From Planctomycetota bacterium (GTDB taxonomy: Bacteria > Planctomycetota > Phycisphaerae > Sedimentisphaerales > Anaerobacaceae): a DNA stretch of 33,060 bases. Positions 1 through 22,909 of the stretch are shown here, piece after piece (positions within the stretch are counted from its first letter, which is position 1; every line of letters starts with the position of its first letter). The stretch spans positions 1 through 33,060 of the forward strand of contig JAFNGF010000023.1 in assembly GCA_017885385.1 (NCBI GenBank), given 5' to 3'. The translations under genes were made by a program, and so were the position numbers. The notes under the pieces were generated by a model that was not told the origin of the DNA, searched no databases, and saw only the letters and a program-made list of their open reading frames with translations.

Positions 1-953
1 TGGACGATACTTCGGGTTAGCTCCTGAACCATAGGGTTCGTATTGATATACTCAGTACGTCTTCCTATCAGCTCTTGTGGCGCGATGGCTTGTTGTTCAG
101 CTTGCTGGAGAAACTGTACCTGGGCTTCAAGGTTGATTCTGCGCGCCTCTATTCGGGTTAGTTCGCCCAGCAAGGCGGTAACCCGCTGCAAGGCCATGTC
201 TTGTCGCCCACCCAAAGTGGTTGTTCCAAACGGGTCTGCCAGTTCGCGCAGCTTTGTGCGGTGATCGTCCAGCCTTTGGACAAGCGTTTTTCGCTCGCTT
301 TCCAGAGTGGCCAGCTTTTGGTTCTCGTCTTGGGTGGCTCTGGTGCCTTCAAGAGCCATATAGGCACTAATGAAAGCGTCTACGATCTGCTTCGCTTCGT
401 TACCGTTTGTGCTTTTCACGGTCACTTCTATTAGCTCAGTCCTTCGAGCGGGAGCGGCGGTAATAATTCCACCTTGTATTGCGTCTTTCAATACGTTGGC
501 TGGTTCGCGATTTGCTTCGGCACCCTTAAGTTGGCGTTTGAGTTTCGCGACAAAGCCAACCGGTTCTTTCTGGAAGAAGGACAAATTCTTGTCTGCCAGG
601 GTGTCTGCCACCCATTGCACTACCTTCTTACTGGTAATGAGTCTTGCCTGTGTGTATACAAAGCTTTCGTAGTTTGATATTACCCCTTGTTCCGCTTCGC
701 CGGTCAGGATATTCGGTATGATTGGGGCCACTCGTATTGCGCCAGTTACGTTGTATAGTGGCTCTATTAGAAGCCAAATCGCAGGGACTCCTAAGCCGCA
801 CATTACAACAAAGACAAGCAGTACAATGTACCACCGGCGAAGCACACCCTTCACCAAATCCGATGTGCCTTGGCTGCCGGCTTCCGGCGGTGTTTCAAGA
901 TACGCAGGCTTTTGTTCGATAACCTGAGCGGTGTATCTATCTAAATTATCCAT
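1..953 (-). CDS. Chain-length determinant / polysaccharide co-polymerase (Wzz/GumC-like), C-terminus cut by the window edge
   Basis: Reverse-strand reading from ATG at 953: MDNLDRYTAQVIEQKPAYLETPPEAGSQGTSDLVKGVLRRWYIVLLVFVVMCGLGVPAIWLLIEPLYNVTGAIRVAPIIPNILTGE..., with an N-terminal TM, a Wzz-like periplasmic start and later coiled-coil-like sequence. Open to position 1. Confidence 0.8.
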   Translation of the reverse strand, partial: MDNLDRYTAQVIEQKPAYLETPPEAGSQGTSDLVKGVLRRWYIVLLVFVVMCGLGVPAIWLLIEPLYNVTGAIRVAPIIPNILTGEAEQGVISNYESFVYTQARLITSKKVVQWVADTLADKNLSFFQKEPVGFVAKLKRQLKGAEANREPANVLKDAIQGGIITAAPARRTELIEVTVKSTNGNEAKQIVDAFISAYMALEGTRATQDENQKLATLESERKTLVQRLDDHRTKLRELADPFGTTTLGGRQDMALQRVTALLGELTRIEARRINLEAQVQFLQQAEQQAIAPQELIGRRTEYINTNPMVQELTRSIV

Positions 954-981: not shown

Positions 982-2976
982 TCACTTTCGCCTTACAGCT
1001 ATTATAGCCTCTTTTTGCGTAGGAGGCATGGTAAGTTTTGCCAAAATCCAGAGTTCCGCAACGACAGTTGCAAGGGCTAAGGGCATCATCGCATATCCAC
1101 CGAAGTCGTGGAACACTTTTTCCCAGTATTCTCCACTTACGACCGTAAAGGCAAGTGCCGTGATTGCCAACCGCGTCGTGTTACACAACAAAGCTACCGG
1201 TAGGCTCGAAGCAAAAACAATCAGCTTTTCCCACCATGTGCGCTTGACTAATAGGACCACTAAGCCGCTGATAACAAAAAAGGCAGTGACCATCCTGAGG
1301 CCATTGCAGGCCTCAGCTACCGCCACGCTTGCACTGCCGATATGAATGACATTGCCTTCTTGCATGACACTATAGCCCATCGTCTCCAGGCAGAATACTG
1401 CTGATGAGGTGGCCCATTCCTGCAGCGGTAAGGCAATAGCTGCCTGGATTCGGTTCGGCCAGGGCAACATTAAGCATAGAAACAGCAGCACAGTAGATAC
1501 TCTTCGCAAAAGCGGCCAGCCGAACAGAAGCAACACCAGGGCAGCGACACTTAGAGCAATAGATAAGTTCTCAGCCGAACTGTAGATGAGGGCAAGGCCG
1601 GAAAGTCTGACCGCCTGGGCGCCGACGAAGAAAAGTATGCCCCAAAGAGACGGCCTTATCCGGCATTGAGCAAGATCGTTGTGCCTCGACCATAAAATGT
1701 AGACAGCCAAAAACGGCACTAAAAGGCCGCTGGAATATTCATCGCTTCTCTGCCACATCTGCCAAAGCTCAACGACGCCTCGCCAGTAGGACCAGAGAAG
1801 GGCGACCAAAACAACGCCCATTGCAAGCCCGGGAATGAGCTGGGCTTTGTGCCCGTCAACCCAGGCTGGTAGCTTTGCGTTGATTCCAGCAAGTTGAGGT
1901 GGCGATGTAATTCGCAGTTTGCTTGTCGTGTTCTTTACTGCCATAAAGGCCTTGCCAGCGCATTGTAGTATTCCCGGTGCTTTGAACATTATAGACTCTT
2001 CTTCTACAATCGTATTAGCGGGCACAACGGCGTGGTAGTCAATTAAGCACCGTTGGATTTGGCAATTCGGACCAATCGTGGCCTCATCCCAGAGTGCGCT
2101 ATTTACAACCACACTACCCTGGCCGATCGTGACGCCTCGCTCAATGATTGCTGGCCCAACAATAACCACGTCCTTTGATATCTGGGCGCCATCCATTATA
2201 GCAACTGGGCCGCAAATTCGCACACTTGGATGTATGCTCACGTTATCCGCCATCCACGCAGTTTGCGAATCTGTTCGTTTGCAGAGATTCAAACCTGTGT
2301 CTGCGCCTGGGCCGTTTTCAAGGTAATTAGCGATGGCATTTAAGTAACTCTGCCGATCTCGAAAGTTCCCTGCAGGCTTTGGCAATGTTACAGTATGAAC
2401 GGTTTTGCCAACTCTGATCATTTCACGAATTAATCCTTCCTTGATGTCAAAGTACCCTTCTTTAGGTACATGTTGCAGGATAGCGGGGTTACAGACGTAG
2501 ATACAGGAGCCCTGGCCCGTAAGCTGGCTATTTTCTTGGTTCGGATTTAACATCACCGTCAGGTCCGCCCCACCATCGCGATGGGCCTGCAATAAAACAT
2601 CGATTTTGGGAGGCGATATTATCGTAGCTGGGAACACTATGAATACCGCATCTGTTTCATTGTCAGCAGCACCGCGGATACATCCAGCAGTACCAACCGG
2701 CAGCGGTTCGTCCAAAAACTTCAACTCTAAACGATTGTCAACGTGAATCGAATCTGCCAACAACGAGCTGTCGCCGGCCGAACAAATAGTGACTTGTCTT
2801 AGTCCTTGATCTGCGAGAGAAGTTAGCATACGCTCAAGCGCAGGTCGCCCCGACACCGGCCACAACGCCGTTGGCAGGCGCCTCGCTAACGGACACATAG
2901 TAAAATCCCGGTTTCCCGCGAGAATCACCGCTTTGACCTTTTGTCTTTTGAGTAATTGCCTGCGCATCATCACCAT
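982..2976 (-). CDS. Fusion protein: nucleotidyltransferase-like domain + left-handed beta-helix region + C-terminal exosortase (EpsH/Xrt family)
   Basis: N-term VKAVILAGNRDFTMCPLARRLPTALWPVSGRPALERMLTSLADQGLRQVTI (NTP_transferase-like), aa ~240-335 hexapeptide-like repeats, C-term multi-TM with AEACNGLRM (Cys557), NTTRLAITA (Arg602), FHDFGGYAMMPLA (His623), the exosortase Cys/Arg/His triad. Confidence 0.88.
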   Translation of the reverse strand: MVMMRRQLLKRQKVKAVILAGNRDFTMCPLARRLPTALWPVSGRPALERMLTSLADQGLRQVTICSAGDSSLLADSIHVDNRLELKFLDEPLPVGTAGCIRGAADNETDAVFIVFPATIISPPKIDVLLQAHRDGGADLTVMLNPNQENSQLTGQGSCIYVCNPAILQHVPKEGYFDIKEGLIREMIRVGKTVHTVTLPKPAGNFRDRQSYLNAIANYLENGPGADTGLNLCKRTDSQTAWMADNVSIHPSVRICGPVAIMDGAQISKDVVIVGPAIIERGVTIGQGSVVVNSALWDEATIGPNCQIQRCLIDYHAVVPANTIVEEESIMFKAPGILQCAGKAFMAVKNTTSKLRITSPPQLAGINAKLPAWVDGHKAQLIPGLAMGVVLVALLWSYWRGVVELWQMWQRSDEYSSGLLVPFLAVYILWSRHNDLAQCRIRPSLWGILFFVGAQAVRLSGLALIYSSAENLSIALSVAALVLLLFGWPLLRRVSTVLLFLCLMLPWPNRIQAAIALPLQEWATSSAVFCLETMGYSVMQEGNVIHIGSASVAVAEACNGLRMVTAFFVISGLVVLLVKRTWWEKLIVFASSLPVALLCNTTRLAITALAFTVVSGEYWEKVFHDFGGYAMMPLALATVVAELWILAKLTMPPTQKEAIIAVRRK

Positions 2977-3414: not shown

Positions 3415-4551
3415 TCAGTCTGCTGTCAGAACCTCTCCGCCGTCAGTGTCATTATCCAGGATTTCCTCGCTTAACAGACCTGACTCAAGAATGATTTTTG
3501 CCAAACCCTCGCCCACAATTCGGCAGCCGAGCGGAGTAAAGTGACCGTCCGACCGTTCCCAGTAAAGTATCTTACCGTTATGCTGCTTGAATGATTCCAC
3601 CGGACAGAACACTGTAAAGTGTCTATCTTCTGCAAATTCCTCCCATGGGAATTTTGATATGTGTTCTGTTCGGCTTCGCCAAAATGGAATATCAAGAATT
3701 AAGAAGTTGGCTCCGTGAGAAATGCACTGCTGTCTGATTTCCTCCAGAATTGCTATTGTCAAGTGCCTCTGGTATTCCAATACCACTTCGGTGGCGTCAC
3801 TTTCGTTTGGAGATTGTGCTGAGCTGGCCGGATTGGACAGAATTCGTATTGTAGGGAGGATTTTATATTTCACTAAATTGGCCGCCTTGTCACGTACAAG
3901 GGTGTACAGGTGTAGGTGTTCGCCTACAAAGCGATAAATCTTGGACCTAAACAAAACTTCCTGTAGTTTTGTGGCTGGCAAATAGGTTTTGCCACGGCGA
4001 ACTAAGCGGCCGTCTTCCAGCCCGAACAGATCTGCTCGAATGTTGTCGTCAAGGTCTGAACCATGCCAGGCAAGCAGAACAAGGTCAGGCTCGTACCGAA
4101 AACCCTCTTCTCTTAGAGTGATCAGTTCCTCAGCATTTCCGTGACCCGAGACCGAGAGGTTTACAACTTCACATCTTATTCCGTTTTTTTCAAGAGCCTT
4201 TTGCATTTGGCTGGTGAAGGTATCTTGTATATCCACGCCATAACCCATTCCGAAAGAGTCCCCCAGCACCACTATTCTCTTTAGTCCGGGCGGTTTTTCG
4301 TAGGGTATCTCGCTGTCGGCACGGATACCTTTCGAGTTTGTCCGAATGTTAATGCGATAATCAGGTGTGACATGCCAGTAGCTGCAGTTGGGCTCGTTGC
4401 CTCTTATCCCGTAATCCGTGGGGCGCACGTAACGGGGAAGAATCGACTGTGGTGCAAAGACGCGAAGGAAAACTTCTGCAGCAAGCAGGCAATATGCAGC
4501 GACGAATAGTGTTTTTGCAATCCGTTGCCATATCCAGGTTGTCAATCTCAT
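3415..4551 (-). CDS. SGNH/GDSL-type hydrolase, membrane-anchored, probable O-acyl transfer partner
   Basis: N-terminal TM; block I VVLGDSFGMGYGVD; C-terminal DGHFTPLGCRIVGEG. Start taken at MRLTTWIWQ (CAT at 4549-4551) rather than the ORF-track start 4596, which overlaps the upstream gene. Confidence 0.75.
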   Translation of the reverse strand: MRLTTWIWQRIAKTLFVAAYCLLAAEVFLRVFAPQSILPRYVRPTDYGIRGNEPNCSYWHVTPDYRINIRTNSKGIRADSEIPYEKPPGLKRIVVLGDSFGMGYGVDIQDTFTSQMQKALEKNGIRCEVVNLSVSGHGNAEELITLREEGFRYEPDLVLLAWHGSDLDDNIRADLFGLEDGRLVRRGKTYLPATKLQEVLFRSKIYRFVGEHLHLYTLVRDKAANLVKYKILPTIRILSNPASSAQSPNESDATEVVLEYQRHLTIAILEEIRQQCISHGANFLILDIPFWRSRTEHISKFPWEEFAEDRHFTVFCPVESFKQHNGKILYWERSDGHFTPLGCRIVGEGLAKIILESGLLSEEILDNDTDGGEVLTAD

Positions 4552-4564
4552 GTCCTTTGCTTCC

Positions 4565-6238
4565 CTAAAATGCAAAGTATACGAATTCCTTACCACCGCT
4601 CTCTGCCAAACTCAGAACCGACATAATCACGAATAACCAGACATTTAGACGTATAAACCACGGCAATCGCGATAAGGGATTTAATGTCCCGGTCAGACCT
4701 TGAATGGCTTGAAACAACACGAGGAACCAGCAATAGAATACGAGTTTGCCGAAACAACTTGTCGCCTCAGTTGACAGACTTGGATGTAGCAAGATAGATT
4801 GCGAGAAAACCCCTACGGTGTTGAGGTTTCGGGCACGAAACAAGACCCAGCCGGCACAACTCAAATGGAACATAAAGGCGCATTGGATAGCTGAAACCCA
4901 CCATCGTGGTGTTTCGCCGTCGGAATTGCGAGTAAGAGTATGATGTAGAGTAACAAGTATGCCTTGAAACACTCCCCAGAGGACAAATGTCCATGCGGCA
5001 CCGTGCCACAACCCACATAACAAGAACGTGACCATCATGTTACGGGCTGTTTTACAAAGGCCGTAGCGACTGCCGCCCAGCGGGATATACAGATAGTCTC
5101 GCAGCCAACTTGAGAGGCTGATGTGCCAGCGTCGCCAGAAGTCGGATGGGTTCCTCGCAAAATAGGGAAGATTGAAGTTAAGTCTGACGTTAAACCCCAA
5201 CAATTGGGCAACACCGCGTGCGATGTCGGTATAGCCTGAGAAGTCACAGTAAATCTGGAAGGCAAAAGCATAAATCGCTGCCAATAACCGAATGCCGTCT
5301 TGCGGGACCGCTAATGCTGAAGCAGGGTTGTCGAATGGGGCGAAGGTTGTGTTTACAATCTTGGCCAGATTGTCAGCAACTACCATTTTTTTGTATAGCC
5401 CCCAGATGATAAGCCATATACCTTCTCGTAAGTCACAGGACTTTATCGCACGCGGTTTTTGAAACTGAGGTAAAAGAGTTGTTCCTCGTTCGATAGGTCC
5501 TGAAAGGACCAAAGGAAAAAATGTAGTAAAAAGTGCTATGTCGAGCAGAGAGTCATTCGCCTGACTTGTTCGGCGGTAAACATCTATGACGTAACCCATT
5601 GTCTGGAACGTGTAAAAGGATATGCCTATAGGCATTATGATGTTGAGCGTTTCGGTATTCACTGAGATACCGGCGATGGAGTGAACCAGGGTGCGGAACG
5701 TATCTACAAAGAAGTTGCAGTACTTGAAGATTCCAAGCACGGTCAGGTTAATTGTTATGCTGAATACGAGGAAGAATTTTCGTCTATGGTTGTCTCTTAA
5801 ACGGCAAAGGAACGGGTAACTGATATTGATAAGAACTATCGCTGCTATGATACCCAGTGTGAGGATATAATGCTGTGCATCGGCATAAACAAGATTATTC
5901 CAGTCCACTGTTAGTAAAGGACGCCATTTCGGAAGCGAGAATTTCACAGCGTTCCATTTTAATCCCAGGAAGAGCATGACCGCTAAGATACAGAATCCCG
6001 ATGCCCGAGCACGTTGCTTGCCTGTCATTTGTCCCCTATCTATCGATAGAGCGCAGCAGTAGGCAACTACACTTGACAGCGCTATCAGCACCAGAAAGCG
6101 GACATCCCACCAGCCATAAAAAACGTAACTTGCAGCCAGAAGCAGCAGATTCTGCAACCGATACGAACGGCGCAACGACCAGTAGAAAACAAAGACAATG
6201 ACGAAGAAAACTTCAAATGCTATACTATTGAATGACAT
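4565..6238 (-). CDS. MBOAT family membrane O-acyltransferase (AlgI-like)
   Basis: Multi-TM; FYTFQTMGYVIDVYRR, DFSGYTDIARG, NPSDFWRRWHISLSSWLRDYLYIPLGGSR, LLCGLWHGAAWTFVLWG: characteristic AlgI/MBOAT motifs. Confidence 0.93.
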   Translation of the reverse strand: MSFNSIAFEVFFVIVFVFYWSLRRSYRLQNLLLLAASYVFYGWWDVRFLVLIALSSVVAYCCALSIDRGQMTGKQRARASGFCILAVMLFLGLKWNAVKFSLPKWRPLLTVDWNNLVYADAQHYILTLGIIAAIVLINISYPFLCRLRDNHRRKFFLVFSITINLTVLGIFKYCNFFVDTFRTLVHSIAGISVNTETLNIIMPIGISFYTFQTMGYVIDVYRRTSQANDSLLDIALFTTFFPLVLSGPIERGTTLLPQFQKPRAIKSCDLREGIWLIIWGLYKKMVVADNLAKIVNTTFAPFDNPASALAVPQDGIRLLAAIYAFAFQIYCDFSGYTDIARGVAQLLGFNVRLNFNLPYFARNPSDFWRRWHISLSSWLRDYLYIPLGGSRYGLCKTARNMMVTFLLCGLWHGAAWTFVLWGVFQGILVTLHHTLTRNSDGETPRWWVSAIQCAFMFHLSCAGWVLFRARNLNTVGVFSQSILLHPSLSTEATSCFGKLVFYCWFLVLFQAIQGLTGTLNPLSRLPWFIRLNVWLFVIMSVLSLAESGGKEFVYFAF

Positions 6239-6240
6239 CC

Positions 6241-7011
6241 CTAGTTCTCAGCTAGATCGTAGTTTTGCAACAGTTTCTCTAATATGGGAACTATAGAATT
6301 ATTAATCGCTTGGTAGCCTGCCGAATTCAAATGAAACGTGTCTCGTGCGTACTCCGGTTTTAGAGTCTTGCCGACAGACAAGATTGGATCACAATTGACC
6401 ACTGTCACTCTCGGGCCACCCAAGCCTCTGATCATTGCATTAGTTTTCTCCACCGCCTCGCGGATTCCGTCCGACCAAATCAGCCTGTAAAGAAGTCCAA
6501 CTGTACCAGGAGAGAATATGGTCAGAACTACCACATGGGTATTGTGTTCCGTCGTCTGCTTGACTATAGTCCTCAAGTTCTTCTGGCACGTCTCAGTAAT
6601 TTCGTCCTTGCGCTTAGGAAAGACACCTATGGTCTTGAGGTCATTGATTCCCACTTGTATAACCACTACAGACGGCCGTAGTCGAATGATGTCTCTATCT
6701 AATCTGAGAATTGTTTGGGCGGTAGTCTCACCACTGACGCCGCGGTTCAGCAACTGACAATTCGGGACACAAGGTAGAGGGTCCCAGTAGGCGATCCTCG
6801 AATCACCTAACAAGATAACCCTTGCTTTTCCCGCCTGAGGCGGTTGCCGTTGGAGGTTTTCTGCCGCGAAGCTCCTGGCGCTCGTCGGATCAAGCCGAAC
6901 CATTTGAAGTTCACGGTAGAGTCTGGTAACCTGTCGATAAAGAATGATATTAACCAGGCCTGAGAACAGGAGGCACAATACAAGCACAAATGGCACAATC
7001 TTAGATCTCAT
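6241..7011 (-). CDS. SGNH/GDSL hydrolase, N-terminal membrane anchor
   Basis: VILLGDSRIAYW, RGVSGETTAQ, IQVGINDLK, DTFHLNSAGYQ: SGNH blocks I, II, III, V. Confidence 0.85.
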   Translation of the reverse strand: MRSKIVPFVLVLCLLFSGLVNIILYRQVTRLYRELQMVRLDPTSARSFAAENLQRQPPQAGKARVILLGDSRIAYWDPLPCVPNCQLLNRGVSGETTAQTILRLDRDIIRLRPSVVVIQVGINDLKTIGVFPKRKDEITETCQKNLRTIVKQTTEHNTHVVVLTIFSPGTVGLLYRLIWSDGIREAVEKTNAMIRGLGGPRVTVVNCDPILSVGKTLKPEYARDTFHLNSAGYQAINNSIVPILEKLLQNYDLAEN

Positions 7012-7505
7012 GCCTTTTCGCCTTCTGCGGTTAGCCCGCTCAGAAACCTTGCAATCCGGACAGCAACTGCCATTGGCTGAGCCTGTCGTTTACAGGGCAC
7101 AAAGGTCCTTAACCGCGTTAGTTTTTCGGGCAATTCCTCCACTTCATAAGCTACAAGTACATAGGCCAGTTTTTCAAATCTCTTGGCAACTGCCACTTGG
7201 TGGTCGTTCACCACCTCCCCATAGCTTTGCCGTCGCGGCATCACGAGGAGAGGCTTTTCATACTCCATCGCCTTCGAAATGGTTCCTATACCTGCATGAC
7301 TGATTACACTGGAAGCCTCACGCAGACGCTTATCAAAAAGGTGGTTTTCAAGGGAGCACACAGCTTGAAAATTACGCGGCCGATACGAGCTATTGCCAAT
7401 CTGCGCGAATATCTCCTCCTCAAATCCACTATGATCGACGGCGTCATCAACGGATTTAACCAAACGATCAAAGGGAAATTGTGTCCCTACAGTGAGGAAA
7501 ATCAT
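7008..7505 (-). CDS. Glycosyltransferase catalytic subunit, Alg13/PssE/EpsF type
   Basis: MIFLTVGTQFPFDRLVKSVD... SHAGIGTISKAMEYEKPLLVMPRR...EVVNDHQ; Alg13-like motif. 4-nt overlaps with both neighbours. Confidence 0.85.
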   Translation of the reverse strand: MIFLTVGTQFPFDRLVKSVDDAVDHSGFEEEIFAQIGNSSYRPRNFQAVCSLENHLFDKRLREASSVISHAGIGTISKAMEYEKPLLVMPRRQSYGEVVNDHQVAVAKRFEKLAYVLVAYEVEELPEKLTRLRTFVPCKRQAQPMAVAVRIARFLSGLTAEGEKA

Positions 7506-7969
7506 ATGACTTCCCCTACGTATTCGACATTTCTGTATTGTGCCGCGAGTTCAGGCCACTGCACAAGGAAGAGGCTCGCAATGTATCTGACCATCCTCCC
7601 TGACAGAGATAACCGTTCTATATTTGTAATGCTGTCAATCCAGACAATTTCAGCGCCAGTTGTTTTGGCCAGGAAACAGACTATGCACCCTACGGCTGCA
7701 CCTGTGCTTATAACAACTCCAGGCCTTTCGCGCAAGAGGGCTTTCAGACACCGCGCGAAAACCCGAATAACGCGCAGAGGATATCTGCGGTTGCACTCCC
7801 CAACAATATAGACATTTCCGTACTCTTGAAGTTGCTTGGCGACAACATCTGTTGTCGTAACACAAAATGTCTCGTGTCCTTTCCAACTTTCACTGAGTCT
7901 TAATAGCTGGCTGAGATGTCCTCCTCCCGACGCTGCCAAGCAAATCTTCAGTTTTCTTGCTATTACCAT
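7502..7969 (-). CDS. Alg14/PssD-type glycosyltransferase partner subunit
   Basis: KICLAASGGGHLSQLLRL...VISTGAAVGCIVCFLAK...IVWIDSITNIERLSLSGRMVRYIASLFLVQWPEL. Start set at ATG 7969 (7-nt overlap with the upstream gene). Confidence 0.85.
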   Translation of the reverse strand: MVIARKLKICLAASGGGHLSQLLRLSESWKGHETFCVTTTDVVAKQLQEYGNVYIVGECNRRYPLRVIRVFARCLKALLRERPGVVISTGAAVGCIVCFLAKTTGAEIVWIDSITNIERLSLSGRMVRYIASLFLVQWPELAAQYRNVEYVGEVI

Positions 7970-9051
7970 ATCCCTAACCGTCTTTGAATTGGGCGTAGGA
8001 GAATCTGCGGCCAGAAAATTGGCTGGTAATGGACGAACCTCTTTGCGATGTCCAGCCATAAGCTATGTCGTGATTGGGTCTCTAAAGTCTTCAGTTCTGA
8101 TGTGTATTCTTTTTCATACCTTTCTGTGCCGATGGGCTGTTGTCTCAAGATGTCGCATCGCCGCATTGTTTCTTTATGCAATTCATTTTTCATTTCGCCC
8201 GTGGCAAGTATAGGCCGATAGTCTTCGTCTCTGAGTATAGGAATCGCTTCCCATTTAATGATTCTTTTATCTGCGATTATTATGCTGAGTATTATAGACC
8301 AATCGGTGTCTTTGAAGTGACTGTCAAAGATGAAGTTACCCAGACTATAAGCAACCAAGAAATTGTCGGCACTATCAATACCCTGTACAACATGGGAATG
8401 ATGACCTATGATTAGTAAGGCACCTGCATCAGCAAATTGCCGCGCTACTTTTCTTTGCCATATGCTCGGACGGTCTATTAATTCATCGCCCCAATGAACT
8501 GAGACTATCACAAGATTATCTTTGGCTGCTTTGGCTTCTATTGTCTGGATTACATTATCCAGATTGCTGTTGAAAGCATACTTGCCGTTGTGGAAGCAGG
8601 CCCCGATTACAGCAACTGGTTGGTCGCCGAACCTCATAGATAGAGGTTCATTCCCCATTTGGAAGCGACCATTTTTGCCCGCGCCGACTGTTTTTACCCC
8701 GGCCTTTTCCAATTGCTGGACCGTGTCGACCGCAGATTCAAGACCTTGCTCAAGAATATGATTGTTGGCAACATGTGCTACTGTTACTCCCCACTTCGCA
8801 AGATATGCAGCCGTTGTCGGACGGCCTCGCATGTGCAGACTACGCAGGCTGTTTTGCTGGCGACCGATATCAGATAGAACACACTCCAAATTGCAGAGTA
8901 CCATATCGTGTGAAGCGAAGACATCGACGATCTCACGCGGCAAAAAATCGCTGCCAAACTTGTCTAATCCGGAGGCGACACCACATCCGAGCAGGTGAAA
9001 TGAGTCTCCACACATTGTATCACCAACACAGGCTATCTTCAGCGCACCCAT
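7963..9051 (-). CDS. CapA family protein (poly-gamma-glutamate/capsule synthesis, metallophosphoesterase fold)
   Basis: KIACVGDTMCGDSF, LCNLECVLSD, ANNHILEQG, VSVHWGDE, IIGHHSHVVQGI, YSLGNFIFDS: CapA motifs. Confidence 0.9.
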   Translation of the reverse strand: MGALKIACVGDTMCGDSFHLLGCGVASGLDKFGSDFLPREIVDVFASHDMVLCNLECVLSDIGRQQNSLRSLHMRGRPTTAAYLAKWGVTVAHVANNHILEQGLESAVDTVQQLEKAGVKTVGAGKNGRFQMGNEPLSMRFGDQPVAVIGACFHNGKYAFNSNLDNVIQTIEAKAAKDNLVIVSVHWGDELIDRPSIWQRKVARQFADAGALLIIGHHSHVVQGIDSADNFLVAYSLGNFIFDSHFKDTDWSIILSIIIADKRIIKWEAIPILRDEDYRPILATGEMKNELHKETMRRCDILRQQPIGTERYEKEYTSELKTLETQSRHSLWLDIAKRFVHYQPIFWPQILLRPIQRRLGIW

Positions 9052-10271
9052 CAGCTAATTTCCTCTGTCGGTTGCCTTACAGGGTGGAATTTGCTGCTCT
9101 GTTTCATTGCGATTGCTTTTTCAATAAGCTCGGAGATTTTTTCCACATGCGTATCCCAGCTATGTTGCCCGGCAATTTCAATTCGCTTTCGGGCCCGTTC
9201 CGGGGTATCGTTACGCAACTCCCATCGAATAGCGTCGGCAAATTGCTCCTTATTATAAGCAATGCTGATAACGTCGGAATACTGCTTTGTTTCTTCGATC
9301 GGAACTGAGACAATTGGTTTGCCGGAGGCCATATATTCAAACATTTTCAGTGGATTGCAGCATTTTATCCACTCGCTCATTATCCATTGCAGCAAACATA
9401 CATCGAAACACGCGCACAACTGGCGAACCTTTTCGTAAGGCATCCGACCTAAAAGGTGTACGTTTTTCAGCCGAGCCAACTCGGAGTAATCACCGCCGGT
9501 AATCTGGCCGGCAAATACAAACGAAACATCCCGCAACTGTCTGGCACAGTACAGCAGCAGTTCAATATCATTGTGCGCAGTCATCGTTCCGAAATATCCT
9601 GCAATTGGCCGGGGTACATTGGCCAATTCTTCAACCGGTTCACTCTTCTGTGCAGCCTCTTGGAACAGATCAAAATCTACTCCGTGCGGTATGTAGAACA
9701 CGTTTTCTCTCTGCGTCTGTTTCCTATCGTACAGTTCTTTGGACACACAGATCATCAAATCGCTCTCATCGGAAATGCGTTTTTCGCGTTGGTTCAACAA
9801 TAAGGAATTGCCTGTGTAGGAATCGCTGGCAAACAGGTCAGAGACATGATATACCTTCAGCGTAGAATTGAACCAGCTCATCATGTTGGCTGCACGGATG
9901 TTCTCCAGCCAAAGTATCGGTTCCGATATCCCGATACGCCAACAAGCTGTTTTTAGCTGTAGTTTAAGCAGAGAATTGTTAAGAATATCTACTATCTTTC
10001 TGCCCTGGAGGGGAATGAAGATAGGGCTGAATACGTAGAGGTTCTTTTCCGGCTGGCGCAGACACTTGGCGATGCTCTTCACCTTTCTGCCGATTCGCGC
10101 CACGAATCCCTTTTTGCCCTTTGCCGCTCTGACCATATCGGAACCGAAAGGATTTATGTAGAGAACCCTGTTGCTTTTGGCAAATCTCCGCATCAAGTGC
10201 GTAGTGCAACTAGGGTTCATACCCCACCAGTCACTTGGGGCAAAACATATTATGTTATAGTCTGATAACAC
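9051..10271 (-). CDS. Glycosyltransferase family 1/4 (GT-B)
   Basis: IPHGVDFDLF, IAGYFGTMTAHNDIELL, VHLLGRMPYEKV, NPLKMFEYMASGKPIVS: GT-B C-terminal motifs. Confidence 0.85.
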   Translation of the reverse strand: MLSDYNIICFAPSDWWGMNPSCTTHLMRRFAKSNRVLYINPFGSDMVRAAKGKKGFVARIGRKVKSIAKCLRQPEKNLYVFSPIFIPLQGRKIVDILNNSLLKLQLKTACWRIGISEPILWLENIRAANMMSWFNSTLKVYHVSDLFASDSYTGNSLLLNQREKRISDESDLMICVSKELYDRKQTQRENVFYIPHGVDFDLFQEAAQKSEPVEELANVPRPIAGYFGTMTAHNDIELLLYCARQLRDVSFVFAGQITGGDYSELARLKNVHLLGRMPYEKVRQLCACFDVCLLQWIMSEWIKCCNPLKMFEYMASGKPIVSVPIEETKQYSDVISIAYNKEQFADAIRWELRNDTPERARKRIEIAGQHSWDTHVEKISELIEKAIAMKQSSKFHPVRQPTEEIS

Positions 10272-10294
10272 TGCGGTCGATCTTCTATGTTTAT

Positions 10295-11665
10295 CTAATG
10301 GTGCTCCGCCATGACAAAAGAGAGGAACTTGCCGCTCGGCGTCTGGTTTATTTGACGAGTCGGTCGAATGCTGAGGTTGAATTCATCGGGGAGCTCTCTT
10401 TCCAACAATTCGCGGAGTTGTTGCGCGTGCTTCTCCGAGAAACCCTCAGCCGGGACATACTCCAGCACGACATCACTGGCGCTCTCCTGAATGACCTGTC
10501 CGGCCAGTACCGGCATCTCGTACATCCCATACAGCACATGGGCAAGGAGGCACTCAATCGCCGTCGCCCCCAAACGCCTGCCGGAGGGCGTGACCATGGC
10601 ATCGCTCTCACGTCCTACAATACGAGCAATCATGGGGAAGTGACGTCCGCAAGGACACTCTTCATCGCTGGGGAGAACAAGGTCGCCCATCTTATACCGG
10701 ATGAGGGGCATGGCCATGTTCCAAAACCCCGTCGCGATGATCTGACAGCAGTCCTCGTTCGGCGGATCCGCCCGCTCCAACTCGGTCAGTCCGTACTCAG
10801 GCAGAATATGGTAACGACCATGCTCACACGTGTGTATGTAGCATACACGCTCTGCACTGCCGTAGAAATCAAAAACAGGGCAATCAAAGGCTTCTGAGAT
10901 AACTTGCCTCTTGCCATCGTCGAGGGTCTCCGCAGTGGTCAGGACACACTTCAGTGGCAGGCGTATACCCTTCTGCAGACACCCTCTGCCCAAGACAGAT
11001 GCCGCCGACGGATAGGCCACCAGCACCTTGACGCCGTAACAGCGCATGGCATCCACAAATGTTGGCACAACATCCGGTGACAGGTGAAACGCCGACAGCG
11101 TTAACTCCTTCATGCTTGCATCGTAGACATAAGGCTTATGCAGTTTCTCGCTTGGGGAGGCAACGACACGGCCCATCATGTAGGCCACGCTGTCCCTACG
11201 ACCCACACTCGCCCAGTCGAATTGCCGTCGGACGAATGCGTGTTCGTTTCCTATCGAAAACAAATCGCGCCTTAACGGCACCGGCAATCCTGTCGTCCCA
11301 CCGGTGTGGGCGGTATTGAGTAGGAACTGCGGATACCGGCAGGAGACAATACCATCGCCGATTTCCTTGAGGTCCTTCTTGCTGATGATGGGGAACCGCC
11401 GGATATCCTCCAGTTCCCGGATGTCCTGCGGGTGAATCCCCAGCACGTCCATCTTGCCCCGCCAGTAGGGCACGGTCCTGTAGGCGTGCGCGACCACCTT
11501 CTTCAGCAGCGACAACTGGATCTCACGCAATTGCTCAGGCTTATACCACTGTGTCTTGCTCAACCACCGCCGACGGACCCAAAACGTACCTGTGTACCTT
11601 TTGACCAAGAGAGTCTTACAACCACGGAGTGTTGCCTTGACGTCTCTAAGCGTTCGAATGTACAT
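10295..11665 (-). CDS. Adenylate-forming ligase, phenylacetate-CoA ligase (PaaK)/CapK-like
   Basis: P-loop TAHTGGTTGLPVPL; VFDFYGSAERV; IRYKMGDLV...CPCGRHFPMIARIVGRESDAMVTPSGRR. Start taken at ATG 11665 (MYIRTLRD...); ORF track extends to 11731. Confidence 0.82.
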   Translation of the reverse strand: MYIRTLRDVKATLRGCKTLLVKRYTGTFWVRRRWLSKTQWYKPEQLREIQLSLLKKVVAHAYRTVPYWRGKMDVLGIHPQDIRELEDIRRFPIISKKDLKEIGDGIVSCRYPQFLLNTAHTGGTTGLPVPLRRDLFSIGNEHAFVRRQFDWASVGRRDSVAYMMGRVVASPSEKLHKPYVYDASMKELTLSAFHLSPDVVPTFVDAMRCYGVKVLVAYPSAASVLGRGCLQKGIRLPLKCVLTTAETLDDGKRQVISEAFDCPVFDFYGSAERVCYIHTCEHGRYHILPEYGLTELERADPPNEDCCQIIATGFWNMAMPLIRYKMGDLVLPSDEECPCGRHFPMIARIVGRESDAMVTPSGRRLGATAIECLLAHVLYGMYEMPVLAGQVIQESASDVVLEYVPAEGFSEKHAQQLRELLERELPDEFNLSIRPTRQINQTPSGKFLSFVMAEHH

Positions 11666-11818
11666 GTCAACCCTCTTCTTGGCAGAGAAGCCTAATGGGC
11701 TAGACCTTGTTCTTCCCGACTCACGTAGCACTGCCGGGCATTGAGCGGCCCTGCTGGCTGACTCAACTCCACCCTTGTGGGATCGTCCCTCTCGATCTCT
11801 GATTTTCCAAATAGGAGT

Positions 11819-12739
11819 CTAACGAAAACTGAACGGATAGCCGAGAAGCGTCATGAGAAGCTCAATACCTCTCCTGGCTGTCTGCAGGTTGTGATCAAGG
11901 ACTGGGTTCAGACCCACGAGATCGATGGATACGACACGGCAGTGGGACGCAATCTGATGACAGATGTAGGCTGCCTCTCTCATATTGAATCCATAAGGTG
12001 AGGGCAGACCTACTCCAGGCGCCACGGTCTCGTGCAAAGAATCAAGATCGAGACTGACATGTACACCATCTGTCTGATCTGTAACGGTTCGTAAACACTC
12101 CCTGACAGTATTGGCTAATCCTTGTTCAATCACATCGAAAAGCGTGAACATGCGTATCCTGTGGTGGTTGACAAAATCAGCTTCACCCGGATCGATATCA
12201 TGCACCCCCAGGAGACAGATGTTCTTGACGTCGACCTTGGGACCGGGTTTTCCAATGTTGACCAGCAGACTCGGTCCAAAGCCGGTAATAATCGCAACGG
12301 GCATGCCGTGCACGTTTCCAGAGGGCGATGTCTCTGGTGTATTCGCGTCTGGATGGGCGTCAATCCACAGACAACCTGCCCGGCATCCAGCCAAGGCAAC
12401 ACCCGCGAGACAGCCGATGGCAAGACTGTGATCTCCCCCCAGACATACGGGCGTTCGCTCCCTCTCGACAGAGTCTGCCACCACACGCGACAACCTCTCG
12501 CAGTAATCTGCAATTAAACCGACATTGTGAGCGGATGTACGGAGATACTCTGCGGAGGCAGAACACGACACGGAAGCAGGCAGGTCAATGTTGCCTATAT
12601 CGCGAAAACACAGTCCTCGTTGGCGGGCAACAGCGAAAAGGCCCGCCTCGCGGAAAGCATCGGGTCCCAACTTCAGACCGAGTTCTTTCACACCCAGATC
12701 TACGGGAACACCTATGAAATCGACATTCTCACATCGCAT
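11819..12739 (-). CDS. Arginase / ureohydrolase family protein
   Basis: CLGGDHSLAIG, LWIDAHPDANTP...GNVHGMPVA, HVSLDLDSLHETVAPGVGLPSPYG: the Mn-binding H, DxHxD and DxD motifs of ureohydrolases. Confidence 0.9.
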   Translation of the reverse strand: MRCENVDFIGVPVDLGVKELGLKLGPDAFREAGLFAVARQRGLCFRDIGNIDLPASVSCSASAEYLRTSAHNVGLIADYCERLSRVVADSVERERTPVCLGGDHSLAIGCLAGVALAGCRAGCLWIDAHPDANTPETSPSGNVHGMPVAIITGFGPSLLVNIGKPGPKVDVKNICLLGVHDIDPGEADFVNHHRIRMFTLFDVIEQGLANTVRECLRTVTDQTDGVHVSLDLDSLHETVAPGVGLPSPYGFNMREAAYICHQIASHCRVVSIDLVGLNPVLDHNLQTARRGIELLMTLLGYPFSFR

Positions 12740-12796
12740 TTGATGGCCGTCCAGACATGGCTATATGGAGGATTTCGTGTTTGGCCTGCCACTATT

Positions 12797-13954
12797 CTAC
12801 AGCAAGCTGGTCAATGGTGTGTACTCCAGTCGCTTCTTCTTAGCCGAGTATTCATGCGTGAGTTTTCCTCGGTGACACATCACGGCTTTTCGAAGACCCA
12901 GATCCTTTTCGATTGCCTGGTGAAATCCCGCACTGAGCAGCTTTATGTACGGGAACGTTGCGTCGGTCAGCAATCGCGTCGCGGTGACAGGTACAAGAGA
13001 GGGGATGTGATCAGGGTTGTAGTGAATCACCCCGTTTTCGACGTAGGTTTCTGTCAAGGAATCCGAAGACACACATGTTTCTGCAAGATCTTTGTCACAG
13101 GCAGTCGCATCGCAGAGTATACTGTTAGTAGTCATTTGCCCCAAGTCTTCCCGCCTGATTAGATACTCGCACTTTTCCTTCGGCAGCGTGGCCCGTCTGA
13201 CTGCTGCGAGGATCACAATATCCGCGGATGGCAGATGTTGTCTCAACGCCGCGGTTGACTTGTCAGGGTCTCCCTCATCAAATCTCACTACGTCTATCTG
13301 GCAATGCGACATGACCTCCGGGGAGACATATTGTGCGAGGCGTCGATTGAGCGTCTCGGGGTGTTTGTCCACAACCACAATACCAAAGCGATTCATGGCA
13401 AACACGTTGATGGCATTGCAGCCAATGTGCCCTGCGCCAACAACCATCGTTTTCGCACGCGGCCAGTGCCGAAGGTAGCTGCCACCGAGCATGCCCTTAT
13501 GCTCCACCAGAAGATTCATCGCCTTTCTTGCAAATGCGGCGCCGGTCAGTTCGCTCATGGGCTCAAGCAATGGGAGCCGCCTGTCTCGATCAACCCACTC
13601 GTATGCTATTCCAGTCACGCCGGTATCGACGATGTGTCTTATGTTCGCTGGTGCGATATTCTCATCGAAATGCAGATATGTGAACAGAACGTGCTCGGGC
13701 CCGTAGAAGGCGCATTCAGTCGGCAACGGGCACTTGACTTTCAGAATCAGTTCGGATCTCTTATACAATTCCTCTTGGGAGACGATCCGAGCCCCAGCTT
13801 GCTCGTAGTCACTATCCGCGAATCCAGCCTTCAATCCGGCTGTCTCCTCAACGGAGACGCTGTGGCCCATGGCAACCAACTCAGATACATGATCAGGCCG
13901 TAAGGCCACACGTCCTTCGTCGCGCTTTGTCTCTTTTGGCACTCCTATTTTCAT
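12797..13954 (-). CDS. Alanine dehydrogenase / PNT family oxidoreductase (divergent)
   Basis: MKIGVPKETKRDEGRVALRPDHV, LILKVKCP, LFTYLHFDEN, AYEWVDRD, Rossmann VVGAGHIGCNA...VVVDKHPE, C-terminal VIHYNPDHIPSLVPVTATRLLTDATFPYI. Start taken at 13954 (MKIGV). Confidence 0.83.
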   Translation of the reverse strand: MKIGVPKETKRDEGRVALRPDHVSELVAMGHSVSVEETAGLKAGFADSDYEQAGARIVSQEELYKRSELILKVKCPLPTECAFYGPEHVLFTYLHFDENIAPANIRHIVDTGVTGIAYEWVDRDRRLPLLEPMSELTGAAFARKAMNLLVEHKGMLGGSYLRHWPRAKTMVVGAGHIGCNAINVFAMNRFGIVVVDKHPETLNRRLAQYVSPEVMSHCQIDVVRFDEGDPDKSTAALRQHLPSADIVILAAVRRATLPKEKCEYLIRREDLGQMTTNSILCDATACDKDLAETCVSSDSLTETYVENGVIHYNPDHIPSLVPVTATRLLTDATFPYIKLLSAGFHQAIEKDLGLRKAVMCHRGKLTHEYSAKKKRLEYTPLTSLL

Positions 13955-14380
13955 TCGGTTCACCTCAGAAAGACCACCGGCCAAACCCCACGGCGACAAT
14001 CACAACCGAGATTCGGGCAACCCAGCAGCATACGTTCCTCTTGACAAATCATTCTTGGTCGATGACAGAAACAGACTCCCATTACTCATTCGCTCATATG
14101 AAAGACCTCACTCACGAAACTTATGTTCCCCATCCCTCTCGCGAGGCGACGCGAGCCCCGCGCGGACCGACCGCACCGGTACCTGTAAAACAAAGAATAC
14201 GCCGGTCGATAATGCAAAACCAACTTTCAACACGGTGTCATCTCCTAAAAGCTACCATTATGTTTCCAAACGTTTCCACCACTGAATAAGCCATTCACGT
14301 GCACAACTTCAACCAGGCAACACACACAATACGTCTGCCTTTCCACCGAAGACTATAACCTTGTATTACCTGTGAGGGTG

Positions 14381-15568
14381 CTACCGATCCTCGCGAATGA
14401 AGGCCACAACTTTTTCAGCAATAAACGCAATGTGTTCGGAATTTAGCTGTGGGTGCACAGGCAGTGCTAAAATATGGTCTTTGAGAAAACAGGCATCTGG
14501 AAACTCGTCCCAAGGGAGAGCCGGGTGATACCCAGCCCACCATTCTATAGCAGCGATGGACAGTTCGTTGAGCTTTCGGTACAAGTAGACACGGTTTTTA
14601 ACAATCACGGGAAAATACAGTGGACAGACACCTTCGGGCAGTGTCTTGAAAAGAGGTTCTATCCCTTTGGCTTCAGCTAACATATTCAGCAATAGTGTAA
14701 AGTTATTTCGCCGTTTGGTTACTATCGTTGTGATGTCGAAAGTCTTTAGCAGGCGTTTAGTTAATCTGGAGATAGCTTTATCCGTGAAATCTTCGTCGTA
14801 ATAAAAGCTTTTGGGCACATCAGGCGGCAGAGCCTGGTGCGGGGGTTCCATATATCTTGTGTACGCCTGATATCTTTCCAACAATGGCCAGAACAGTGGA
14901 AACAATCTTGTGCCGGAAGCCGAGCGCAAAGAGTTTCTTTTCAGGAGTGATAGTGTCTCCTTTGCTACTAGTGAGAACGGTGCCCGGTGAAGCTCCCAAT
15001 CGTTTTTTGCAAGGTCTGTGCTGTTGATTACAAGTGCCCCACCATCTGGAACAGGCAACGACTTTGGAAAGCTGAAGATTGATATATCGCCTGTTGAGCC
15101 AAGTTTAGTTGAGCCATCACGACTGAATAACGCCAATGCACAATCTTCGATAAGGTATATATTTCTGTCTATGCAAAGTCTTCTAATCTCATTTATCGGC
15201 TGTGGAAAGCCAAAGTAGTGGGTTACATATACGGCCCTGGTTCTCTTGGTGATACGGCTTTGGAGATCAGCAAGGTCAATCAGGCCTGACTTTTGGACAC
15301 GGTAAAGAACCACTGAAACACCATAAGTAACCAGTGGGTCAATTTCTGCTCCACAGTTGTATGCAGGAACCAGGACCTCGGTCTCTGGCGATAGATGGAG
15401 AAACTCACATGCCCGACGAATAGCGGTTCTGCCTCTGTGCACATAATATATCCGCCCTTTGGGCAACCATGTAGTTGCACTATGTTTGGAGTGTTGACCA
15501 GCCAATGAAATAAGACTAAAAGAATGATGTCCACAGTATAATATGTTTGTCTCTTCCTGCATTATCAT
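14381..15568 (-). CDS. DegT/DnrJ/EryC1/StrS family PLP-dependent aminotransferase
   Basis: RTAIRRACEFL...VLVPAYNCGAEIDPLV...VYVTHYFGFPQPINEIR...LIEDCALALFSRDG...STGDISIFSFPKSLPVPDGGALV (PLP lysine in SFPK). Confidence 0.87.
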   Translation of the reverse strand: MIMQEETNILYCGHHSFSLISLAGQHSKHSATTWLPKGRIYYVHRGRTAIRRACEFLHLSPETEVLVPAYNCGAEIDPLVTYGVSVVLYRVQKSGLIDLADLQSRITKRTRAVYVTHYFGFPQPINEIRRLCIDRNIYLIEDCALALFSRDGSTKLGSTGDISIFSFPKSLPVPDGGALVINSTDLAKNDWELHRAPFSLVAKETLSLLKRNSLRSASGTRLFPLFWPLLERYQAYTRYMEPPHQALPPDVPKSFYYDEDFTDKAISRLTKRLLKTFDITTIVTKRRNNFTLLLNMLAEAKGIEPLFKTLPEGVCPLYFPVIVKNRVYLYRKLNELSIAAIEWWAGYHPALPWDEFPDACFLKDHILALPVHPQLNSEHIAFIAEKVVAFIREDR

Positions 15569-15642
15569 TAGTTCTCAAAGATTCCTGAAGGCGGCCGTTT
15601 GATTACTTTGTACTGAGCAAATAATGCTTAGGGAACCCCTAC

Positions 15643-16767
15643 CTACGTACTTTCGCGGCGTAGGTTGGGAATACACATTTTTTTCTTGATTTTGTAGGGT
15701 AAACCTGTGGCTGAGCGCCAGCCGCAGGATAGAAAGTTGAAGCTCTTATGCACCGAGTAAATAAAGGGCTGGCATACACGTATGTAATGCCCGAGGCCAT
15801 ACACAGGCTGTGGGCTGAACTTTTTTTTGAATTCATAGACGAGGTACTTCTCATTAGATGGATCGGCGTTATCTGCGTAGCCTTCTACATCCAACCAGGA
15901 ACACCCTTTCTCTTTTGCCCATTTTATACCCGACCACCATAGCACCGGTCCTATGGACAGGTTTGAGAGTTCTCTGAGAGGCTTCGGTGCAACTACATAG
16001 CGCGCCGTATGAGCTGTCGTGGGTCCTCTGACTATCCAAAGCCCGCCAAGGAACATCTCTCCACCGAAAGCGTTCAAAAGAACACCGAGTTGTCGCTTTT
16101 CGAGTATGTGTTGAAAAGTTGCCTTAAATTCATCATAGGAGACTGGTATGATGCCACGTTCTCGATTCATACGATCGAGATACCGAAAAAACGTTTGAGC
16201 TTCGTCTATACTGCCTGCGGCCCGGATCGCCACATTTTGCCTTTCCGCCCGGCGAATCTCCCTGCGCGCGCTTTTGGAAAATGAACAGAAGATATCGTCG
16301 TCACTACGGCGAATATCCACCAAGCCGGTCGAATAACCGCTATCAGTTGTGGGGGCATCTGCCGAATAACCTAACTCGTCGAGAACTGCTACAACATCGT
16401 GTGCCTCCGGGAAAATCCAATACGGTGAGACGCAAATCCTGCCGACCATGAGAGATTTAAACAGTGGTTCGATCCCCCAGAGGAACTCCTTTGCCCACCC
16501 AGGCTCGTCGAAAATTGGTCCACGCTGGCAAATGGCCTCGAAAGAGAATCGGCGGCTCCAAAGAAAGGGGTGAATACTAAAAACTCCCGCACATACAATG
16601 GTACCGTCCGATTCTCCATATATATAAATGGGAATTCTACCCTTTGCTCGCTCCACCTGACCAAACAGAAAATGCTGTCGCGGATGAGCGTGCCGGCATT
16701 TGCACCAGAACTGTTCCCACCGACTTTTTTGGGTTTGGTCTAATTCATAACAAGAATGTAACTTCAT
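15643..16767 (-). CDS. FemAB-like / GNAT-fold acyl- or aminoacyl-transferase
   Basis: FSKSARREIRRAERQNVAIR, FFRYLDRMNRERGI, AHTARYVVAPKPLRELSNLSIGPVLWWSGIKWAKEKGCSWLDVEGYADN: FemAB/lipid II:glycine transferase-like architecture. Confidence 0.75.
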   Translation of the reverse strand: MKLHSCYELDQTQKSRWEQFWCKCRHAHPRQHFLFGQVERAKGRIPIYIYGESDGTIVCAGVFSIHPFLWSRRFSFEAICQRGPIFDEPGWAKEFLWGIEPLFKSLMVGRICVSPYWIFPEAHDVVAVLDELGYSADAPTTDSGYSTGLVDIRRSDDDIFCSFSKSARREIRRAERQNVAIRAAGSIDEAQTFFRYLDRMNRERGIIPVSYDEFKATFQHILEKRQLGVLLNAFGGEMFLGGLWIVRGPTTAHTARYVVAPKPLRELSNLSIGPVLWWSGIKWAKEKGCSWLDVEGYADNADPSNEKYLVYEFKKKFSPQPVYGLGHYIRVCQPFIYSVHKSFNFLSCGWRSATGLPYKIKKKMCIPNLRREST

Positions 16768-16809
16768 GCAGCTCTCTTGACCGACCTAGTATCAAAAATT
16801 GATGTCGTT

Positions 16810-18093
16810 TTACGAGAAAAGTATTTGGGACTTTATCCATGCTTTCCAACGAGGCCCTCGTTCAAAAGGCAAACGCGGCGCAATCCTGCGAAACCATATC
16901 TTATTATAGCATACGTCGAGCAGCCAAAAAAGTCCCCGACAAATGTATATCCGCATAATTGCGGACATTCCCGACCTAAAAATTAGGATACAGTGTATTG
17001 GAAGAGTCTCGCCGCCGAGATGCAATTTGTGCTCATACATGCCCTGCATACTGTCTATATACTTTGCATTCTCCTCTATGGCTTTTTTAACCTGCTCGAC
17101 GAGAATAACCTTTCCTAAATCCAGATTGGCAACTGCCTGCGACACCAGGCGGGCATCCAAAAATGAATGGTATCTGTCTGCGAATTTGTAGCAATACTTA
17201 TACCCCACGGGCGTGTCCCCCAGCCTAACTTCCAAAAGTCTCAGGCGATTGCGCTTTAGTTGAACAGCGGCAACTTCCCGATGAAAATGGTGAGCATTGG
17301 GCCAATCCTGAAAATGCCCTCCTTTCCCTACACCGTGCCATCGTGCTTCATGCATTTGCACAAAGTTGTCAAAAAGTTCTGGAAAATTTTCCTGCGAAGC
17401 AAAGGTTGAAATCAGTTCCTTGCCCTCGGAATTGATTGCTTTGTAGCTTCTCCTAATGTTGTATCTTTGCTGCTTCGGCAGCCTGGCGATATAATCTTCC
17501 CAGCTGCCTGCCAATTTGAAGTATGTCTGGACACCACATTTTTTCTCCTGAACGTTGTAACCATTCCCAAGTATTTCCTTACACAGACACCCAACTTTTT
17601 CGCATTTATTCTTACCAAATAGACCGGCGAAGGGGCCCAAACATAGCACGTCCCAACGGTAGTGGGAAACCAACTCACAGAGAAAGATCCGCAGAACTTC
17701 GTGCAGAAAATCATTGTGTATAGGCAAACTTACTGTAACAAGCGTAAAATCTGTTCCGACAAGCTTGATTGCTCGCACACAAGCCGGCCCAAGCCATATT
17801 TTCTCCAAAAAGACCGGAATAATCCCAACCAACGTAGATTCGTGGCGGAAGATAAAAACCCTCACGTGTCGTTTTCCACCATAGTACTTCCACCATGTCC
17901 TGCACCAATCATAAGTGAGAAATACTTCACCACCGACGGCTTCTATGAAATCGTCCCATTCCTGCTGCATCGGTGCCAGTTCATCAAGGCTCTCAAACAC
18001 CTCCGCTGCGATATGTTTTTCACATGGACTATCTATATCGGTGCTACGTCCGCATCCAACGGGTGCCCTTTCTTCTCGCCAGAGGTTCTGCAT
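16810..18093 (-). CDS. GNAT-fold acetyltransferase, CelD/BioF2-like
   Basis: WDDFIEAVGGEVFLTYDWCRTWWKYYGGKRHVRVFIFRHESTLVGIIPVFLEK; RLPKQQRYNIRRSYKAI; LLEVRLGDTPVGYKYCYKFADRYHSFLDA. Confidence 0.8.
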   Translation of the reverse strand: MQNLWREERAPVGCGRSTDIDSPCEKHIAAEVFESLDELAPMQQEWDDFIEAVGGEVFLTYDWCRTWWKYYGGKRHVRVFIFRHESTLVGIIPVFLEKIWLGPACVRAIKLVGTDFTLVTVSLPIHNDFLHEVLRIFLCELVSHYRWDVLCLGPFAGLFGKNKCEKVGCLCKEILGNGYNVQEKKCGVQTYFKLAGSWEDYIARLPKQQRYNIRRSYKAINSEGKELISTFASQENFPELFDNFVQMHEARWHGVGKGGHFQDWPNAHHFHREVAAVQLKRNRLRLLEVRLGDTPVGYKYCYKFADRYHSFLDARLVSQAVANLDLGKVILVEQVKKAIEENAKYIDSMQGMYEHKLHLGGETLPIHCILIFRSGMSAIMRIYICRGLFWLLDVCYNKIWFRRIAPRLPFERGPRWKAWIKSQILFS

Positions 18094-18096
18094 TTG

Positions 18097-19137: not shown

Positions 19138-19156
19138 TCTAACGGTCCCCCGGAAC

Positions 19157-20927: not shown

Positions 20928-21591
20928 TGATTCTGCTGCTCTTTCGACAACTTCGTAATTGTGAGTACGTTAATACCGTCATTCCATTTGCTTTGGCTGT
21001 TGCCAAGGCAATCCGAGTAGATTCAAGGACGAGTTTTTCTGTGTTTTTATCAGAACGATCGAAATCATGCGCCAATGAGACTACACCACCTGCTCGCTTT
21101 GCAGCAAGTGCGATTCTTTCCGAGCAGCGCTCCATCTTTAGTGTATCTCCGAGGTCAACCGACCAATACACAATCGACACACGGCATAACAACAGGTACA
21201 ATAGACTTATTATGTTCAGCCTCCCGTTAGGCGGGCGGAACGGATACTTACCACGCTTGGTTTCCATCGCTGCATCTATGGCTTGCCAGCCTCTCTTTAT
21301 ATCCTTTACGGTTCGCAATGGCGAGACCCTCCAGTAGTCCAAATGATCGTAACCGTGTGAGCAAATATCATGGCCTTCTGTTGCGATCCGCTGCACGATT
21401 TCTTCCCGTCCGGCAATTCTCCTGCCAAGAAGAAAAAACGTTGCCTTCGCGTTGTGCTCTGCAAGCAAATCCATAATTGCCGGCGTCAACCTGCTGCCTG
21501 GGCCATCATCAAAAGTCAACACGAGAGAATTGGACTTTACAGCCTTTCGTTTAAGCAATATTCGAGACATCTTGCCGTATATGAAAGGCAC
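20902..21591 (-). CDS. Polysaccharide deacetylase (CE4/NodB domain)
   Basis: LVLTFDDGPGSRLTPAIMDLLAEHNAKATFFLLGRRI, HDICSHGYDHLDYW, FRPPNGRLN, VVSLAHDFD. Confidence 0.92.
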   Translation of the reverse strand: MPFIYGKMSRILLKRKAVKSNSLVLTFDDGPGSRLTPAIMDLLAEHNAKATFFLLGRRIAGREEIVQRIATEGHDICSHGYDHLDYWRVSPLRTVKDIKRGWQAIDAAMETKRGKYPFRPPNGRLNIISLLYLLLCRVSIVYWSVDLGDTLKMERCSERIALAAKRAGGVVSLAHDFDRSDKNTEKLVLESTRIALATAKANGMTVLTYSQLRSCRKSSRINECVGNHS

Positions 21592-21666
21592 ACCCGCATA
21601 GAGGAATAAGGCAGAGAAGAGTGCAAAGCTGGCCCATATAAAAATAATCTGGTATCACCTCCCAAC

Positions 21667-22881: not shown

Positions 22882-22909
22882 GTAACTTACCTCATGACAC
22901 GGTGTCGCC

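Follow-up and report, generated by a model that had tools for sequence, protein, structure and literature searches.

The window, a stretch of 33,060 nucleotides from a Planctomycetota bacterium, carries near its first position a gene that encodes a pseudo-nucleotidyltransferase (pseudo-NTase), a left-handed beta-helix (LbH) and an exosortase in a single frame, preceded by EPS genes on the same strand. Its features are as follows.

3..953, minus strand: N-terminal part of a polysaccharide chain-length determinant, which follows the fusion gene in the operon and is truncated where the contig ends (from synteny with locus L055)
982..2976, minus strand: pseudo-NTase, LbH and exosortase fusion, single open reading frame of 664 aa (ORF calling, Pfam)
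2272..2937, minus strand: pseudo-nucleotidyltransferase domain, aa 14-235, GTAG loop and DIKE motif kept, catalytic Arg/Lys/Asp lost
1987..2259, minus strand: LbH, aa 240-330, of the eIF2B-epsilon/GMPP type
1846..1974, minus strand: fast-evolving, low-confidence linker, aa 335-377
1045..1809, minus strand: Exosortase_EpsH transmembrane domain, aa 390-644
1306..1308, minus strand: predicted catalytic Cys557 (AEACNGLR), invariant in 51 sequences
1171..1173, minus strand: predicted catalytic Arg602 (CNTTRL), invariant in 51 sequences
1108..1110, minus strand: predicted catalytic His623 (FHDFGG), invariant in 51 sequences
3415..24244, minus strand: upstream EPS biosynthesis genes (GDSL, MBOAT, an Alg13/Alg14-like pair, PGA_cap, glycosyltransferases, FemAB/GNAT, polysaccharide deacetylases, Wzy_C-like)

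The fusion frame starts at an ATG and contains no internal stop codon. Pfam detects NTP_transferase at residues 15-150 (35.1 bits, above the cut-off) and Exosortase_EpsH (PF09721) at residues 390-644, with 190.9 bits for a cut-off of 25.7 and profile positions 1-253 of 254 matched. In the region 240-330, Hexapep scores above its cut-off, and LbH_EIF2B, the best Pfam LbH match, is slightly below (48.9 bits vs 54). A preliminary description made from the sequence had placed a nucleotidyltransferase, a hexapeptide domain and an exosortase in one frame; the open reading frame, the Pfam domains and the full-length orthologues bear this out, and the motifs quoted there, LAGNRDFTMCPLARRLPTALWPV and FIVFPATIIS, are present in the translation.

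The AlphaFold2 model of the fusion comprises a well-predicted NTase fold and LbH (pLDDT of about 90-97 for the latter), a linker (335-377) that is disordered, and a helical exosortase. By sequence and structure comparison, the structures nearest to the NTase-LbH head are VTC1 (Foldseek E ~1e-19), human GMPPA-GMPPB and eIF2B; both the fold and the profile match those of the GMPP/GlmU/eIF2B-like proteins. The LbH is probably an oligomerisation surface.

The EpsH profile is covered over its whole length and the Cys/Arg/His triad is conserved. Indeed, Cys557, Arg602 and His623, which had been reported to be in place, are the same in all 51 full-length homologues. The named Xrt models stay far under the curated NCBIfam cut-offs (XrtD 164/400, XrtW 142/425 and XrtA 142/208 bits), and the protein is not assigned to any of these three subfamilies. 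No NCBIfam model covers the fusion, in agreement with the preliminary description, to whose author no such fusion was known, and no description of an NTase/LbH head on an exosortase was found in the searchable literature. Fusions of EpsH to an EpsI domain and to a CAAX-protease-like domain are on record (PMC1569441); the sources searched mention none to an NTase/LbH head. The component types (exosortase, pseudo-NTase, monotopic phosphoglycosyl transferase) are known, and what appears to be new is their combination.

The truncated product of 3..953 has no Pfam match, and its full-length homologue at L055 consists of Wzz and a tyrosine autokinase. Two other regions of the window are worth describing. 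Genes of the arginase family and for alanine dehydrogenase (11819-13999, minus strand) stand in unusual company amid the EPS genes. Divergent from the EPS operon, a gene on the plus strand (29545-33060) encodes a secreted protein of more than 1172 aa, with beta-helix-like and PKD-like repeats recognised by eye, which runs off the contig end.

Distribution and origin of the fusion

About 60 full-length orthologues of the fusion are found in Planctomycetota assemblies. They have 36-67% identity and come from independent assemblies of several families of the order, which rules out the assembly error or frameshift against which the preliminary description had cautioned. The fusion is present in 30/60 relative genomes, belonging to the window's own family and to several further families of the order. 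When 85,488 species genomes were scanned for the head only, 77 loci were recovered, nearly all in Planctomycetota and the majority of them fused. In a survey of the class, the head occurs in 58/250 genomes; the frames are mostly longer than 630 aa inside the order, whereas outside it they are mostly standalone proteins of 340-440 aa.

In another family of the class (loci L133-L136), a diverged exosortase fusion lies beside a conventional phosphoglycosyl transferase (PGT) that has no NTase-like head. Trees place these fusions outside the main fusion clade, and they are possibly of independent origin. When later losses are allowed, AU tests do not reject a single origin of the fusion (p=0.27; p=0.17 for the exosortase tree); the AU result of p=0.001 was obtained with the secondarily unfused rows forced out as well, and is no evidence for two origins. 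The fusion has apparently been split again at L076-L078 and L143.

At L068 (2-4154; G004:C211, also L011), a stop-free frame runs through the pseudo-NTase, the LbH, the exosortase and the chain-length determinant. It is a possible triple fusion, seen in one MAG.

Loss of nucleotidyltransferase catalysis

The metal-binding Asp is retained in none of the 81 pseudo-NTase homologues, the Arg of GTR in 1/81 and the Lys of PK in 1/80, and no homologue has all three; the window copy has a Thr at each of these sites. The protein is therefore not a catalytic sugar-1-phosphate nucleotidyltransferase, which requires the GxGTR Arg, the PK Lys and the metal-binding Asp. The preliminary description was right that these residues are gone, but the loss is not peculiar to this protein, since it is common to the 81 homologues.

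Compared with 7x8j, an active GDP-mannose pyrophosphorylase, GGFGTRLRPL is replaced by GSRDFGRCPL in the family consensus, and about 25-30 residues ahead of the AGIY strand are missing. The family has a conserved motif of its own, RDFGRCPLAsRLPtALWPV, from which the window copy deviates further (FGR to FTM). Essentially all homologues retain the GTAG loop, and the GYxDIKE motif is also kept; G95, A97 and G98 of the former and Y175, D177, I178, K179 and E180 around the latter are invariant in 51 sequences. The nucleotide pocket, whose survival had been left to a structural check, is thus partly preserved: GTAG and DIKE are there, but the phosphate and metal residues and the segment before AGIY are not.

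The strong conservation of RDFGRC, W39, GTAG and DIKE could mean that RDFGRC and DIKE form a new catalytic site, for instance that of a modified nucleotidyl- or phosphotransferase that feeds the EPS pathway. Such a shifted activity is very improbable: the metal-binding Asp is missing in 81/81 homologues, GR of the motif is absent from the window copy, and the standalone homologues carry a different motif at the same position.

The standalone homologues have lost the same catalytic residues, and the inactivation is therefore older than the fusion. The head of the fusion is under purifying selection (dN/dS mostly 0.15-0.39, compared to 0.12-0.23 for the exosortase and 0.3-0.93 for the linker). 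That every homologue is dead, including the unfused ones, and that the head is under selection exclude the recent decay of an active domain.

The preliminary description proposed that the head may sense or bind a nucleotide-sugar or a glycan precursor; sensing of a nucleotide-sugar is possible. In the manner of GMPPA, it would bind an NDP-sugar or a nucleotide through GTAG and DIKE, and gate the activity of the exosortase or of the EPS pathway according to the precursor supply. This reading, which we regard as somewhat doubtful, agrees with the invariance of the pocket residues and with the fact that GMPPA, though catalytically inactive, still binds GDP-mannose and is an allosteric regulator of GMPPB (PMC11228364). 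However, the active-site Arg, Lys and Asp are lost, the missing segment before AGIY is one where active enzymes have sugar-phosphate contacts, and the conserved pocket residues may serve folding. With the phosphate and metal residues and this segment gone, protein-protein scaffolding is no less likely than sensing. The two models are not mutually exclusive.

The sorting signal and the headed phosphoglycosyl transferase

The window's genome encodes at least six intact C-termini with the signal [IV]PAPGA, each followed by a hydrophobic stretch and an Arg-rich end. Three of them belong to successive small secreted proteins, candidate substrates ending in [IV]PAPGAILLG...RRRRTL, at L120 (7001-9282; G000:C170), and the genome has more intact copies on its contigs C2, C11 and C174.

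The locus resembles the exosortase/PEP-CTERM systems (EpsH; XrtA, XrtD) in its EpsH domain with the Cys/Arg/His triad, in its EPS context, in a TPR protein near PrsT (292 bits vs a cut-off of 312.2), and in the short secreted proteins that end in a motif, a hydrophobic stretch and an Arg cluster. It differs from them by the N-terminal pseudo-NTase/LbH head, by a signal that is [IV]PAPGA instead of PEP and by its low scores with the named Xrt models.

The same genome contains a second, distant exosortase (L002/L121, G000:C282) whose EpsH match crosses three stop codons in one frame; it is a pseudogene or an assembly error. In almost all relatives, this exosortase is intact and about 330 aa long.

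At 2.3-2.8 kb downstream of the fusion, past the Wzz/tyrosine-kinase gene, lies the gene of a protein of about 570 aa composed of an NTase-like head, an LbH and a Bac_transf domain. Downstream DNA of 4.3 kb or more is available at 71 loci (two fusions of the head to a PGT were set aside). This headed PGT is found at 66 of them, between -3 and +2.8 kb, whether the pseudo-NTase is fused to an exosortase or not; of the other five, four carry a PGT of the conventional type at about 3 kb and one has none. The headed PGT may directly follow a standalone pseudo-NTase, even with a 4-base overlap. In the window's genome, contig C170 opens with a truncated copy of its gene; judging from synteny, this contig is probably the continuation of that of the window (C23).

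The PGT head and the pseudo-NTase are homologous over both domains (hhalign E=1.3e-26 with the LbH); the NTase part by itself is weakly similar (E ~1e-4, compared to 0.06 for a reversed control). The model of the PGT protein matches NTase-LbH structures as well as PglC/WbaP, with a modest global structural fit. D467 and E468 of the PGT are invariant, which suggests that the transferase itself is active. The catalytic domain is thus of the type found in monotopic PGTs (WbaP, PglC, EpsZ), but the large members of this group have a four-helix bundle and PF13727 (PMC10942596), where an NTase-like/LbH head is present here.

Over 60 genomes, the pseudo-NTase and the PGT head occur together (31/32 vs 2/28, p=1.4e-13), and so do the exosortase part and the [IV]PAPGA signal (29/32 vs 3/28, p=2e-10). 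Because these genomes are related, the Fisher p-values make them look more independent than they are. An association of the signal with the head fits less well (p=3e-7) and is less likely. Two genomes, G014 and G019, have the head and the PGT but neither such an exosortase nor PAPGA. We infer that [IV]PAPGA marks the substrates of this exosortase.

The pseudo-NTase/LbH module has two fusion partners, in the sense of a Rosetta stone: the exosortase at about 60 loci, and the priming PGT, to which it is directly joined at L137 (7583-9679) and L138 (8240-9979). The connection to EPS synthesis put forward in the preliminary description is much stronger than the sequence alone could show, the pseudo-NTase family being tied to the EPS-priming PGT.

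G035 (L063), a one-contig genome with the most PAPGA matches (26), is the sole relative that has the fusion without a headed PGT. Together with the four genomes of L133-L136, in which the fusion accompanies a conventional PGT, it shows that the partner head is not obligatory.

A possible docking module between protein sorting and EPS initiation

The best explanation, to which we give a slightly better than even chance, is that the pseudo-NTase is a scaffold of the GMPPA/eIF2B kind which docks the exosortase to the EPS-initiating PGT. The dead NTase and the LbH would form a cytosolic docking subunit. Its partner is likely to be the head of the downstream PGT, a degenerate NTase/LbH homologous to it. 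On the pattern of GMPPA/GMPPB and eIF2B-gamma/epsilon, these two heads would assemble into a heteromer through their LbH domains. The exosortase-fused head would thereby bring the protein-sorting enzyme to where EPS synthesis begins, and the secreted proteins tagged with [IV]PAPGA would be processed together with the polysaccharide. The module is in the first place one of EPS initiation, and was joined to an exosortase. The contact between the heads, the LbH interface and the coupling of the two activities are all inferred.

GMPPA-GMPPB and VTC1-KJC share the NTase and LbH fold with the head, and in these pairs a non-catalytic member works with a homologous partner; in GMPPA-GMPPB, the LbH supplies the main or sole contact between subunits (PMC9168903). 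On the contrary, the dead subunit is here tethered to a membrane exosortase, and its presumed partner is a degenerate PGT head in place of an active pyrophosphorylase. The gamma and epsilon subunits of eIF2B likewise use the NTase-LbH fold as a scaffold for protein assembly, but they are eukaryotic and their function is unrelated. The regulation of a monotopic PGT by a bound protein has a precedent in EpsW-EpsZ (PMC12802240).

Adjacency and co-occurrence could also reflect co-regulation inside one EPS operon. A pseudo-NTase of the EPS locus would then have joined the neighbouring exosortase gene, which would provide co-expression and stoichiometry but no specific contact to the PGT. All partners do lie within one EPS operon, and the apparent re-splitting of the fusion at L076-L078 and L143 fits this idea. 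We nevertheless consider it unlikely, because the retention of the head throughout the order and the purifying selection on it call for a further reason, as do its alternative fusion to the PGT and the existence of a homologous PGT head.

The active site of the exosortase is expected to be periplasmic and that of the PGT is cytosolic. Docking as proposed in the scaffold model would therefore not allow direct channelling of a substrate without a flippase, and any shared lipid-linked intermediate would first need to be flipped. In a bolder version, which seems rather unlikely, the heads would be a bacterial counterpart of GMPPA-GMPPB that joins the exosortase to the EPS-priming enzyme, and the sorted proteins would be covalently attached to the lipid-linked EPS precursor made there. 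If true, this precursor would be the acceptor that exosortases use.

The case bears on the identity of this acceptor and on the reason why exosortases are almost always sited in EPS loci; a recent study of a cyanobacterial exosortase left open whether the proteins are attached to the outer membrane, to a polysaccharide or to both (PMC12188702). Here, an exosortase is evolutionarily tied to a module that elsewhere goes with the PGT that initiates EPS synthesis, in some cases as one fused protein. As a scaffold, the head would add a bacterial example to the few pseudo-NTases that serve this purpose. The fusion offers a specific and testable connection, at the molecular level, between the sorting of proteins and the initiation of polysaccharide synthesis. 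It suggests that in Planctomycetota the two processes are physically coupled for surface proteins and the extracellular polysaccharide.
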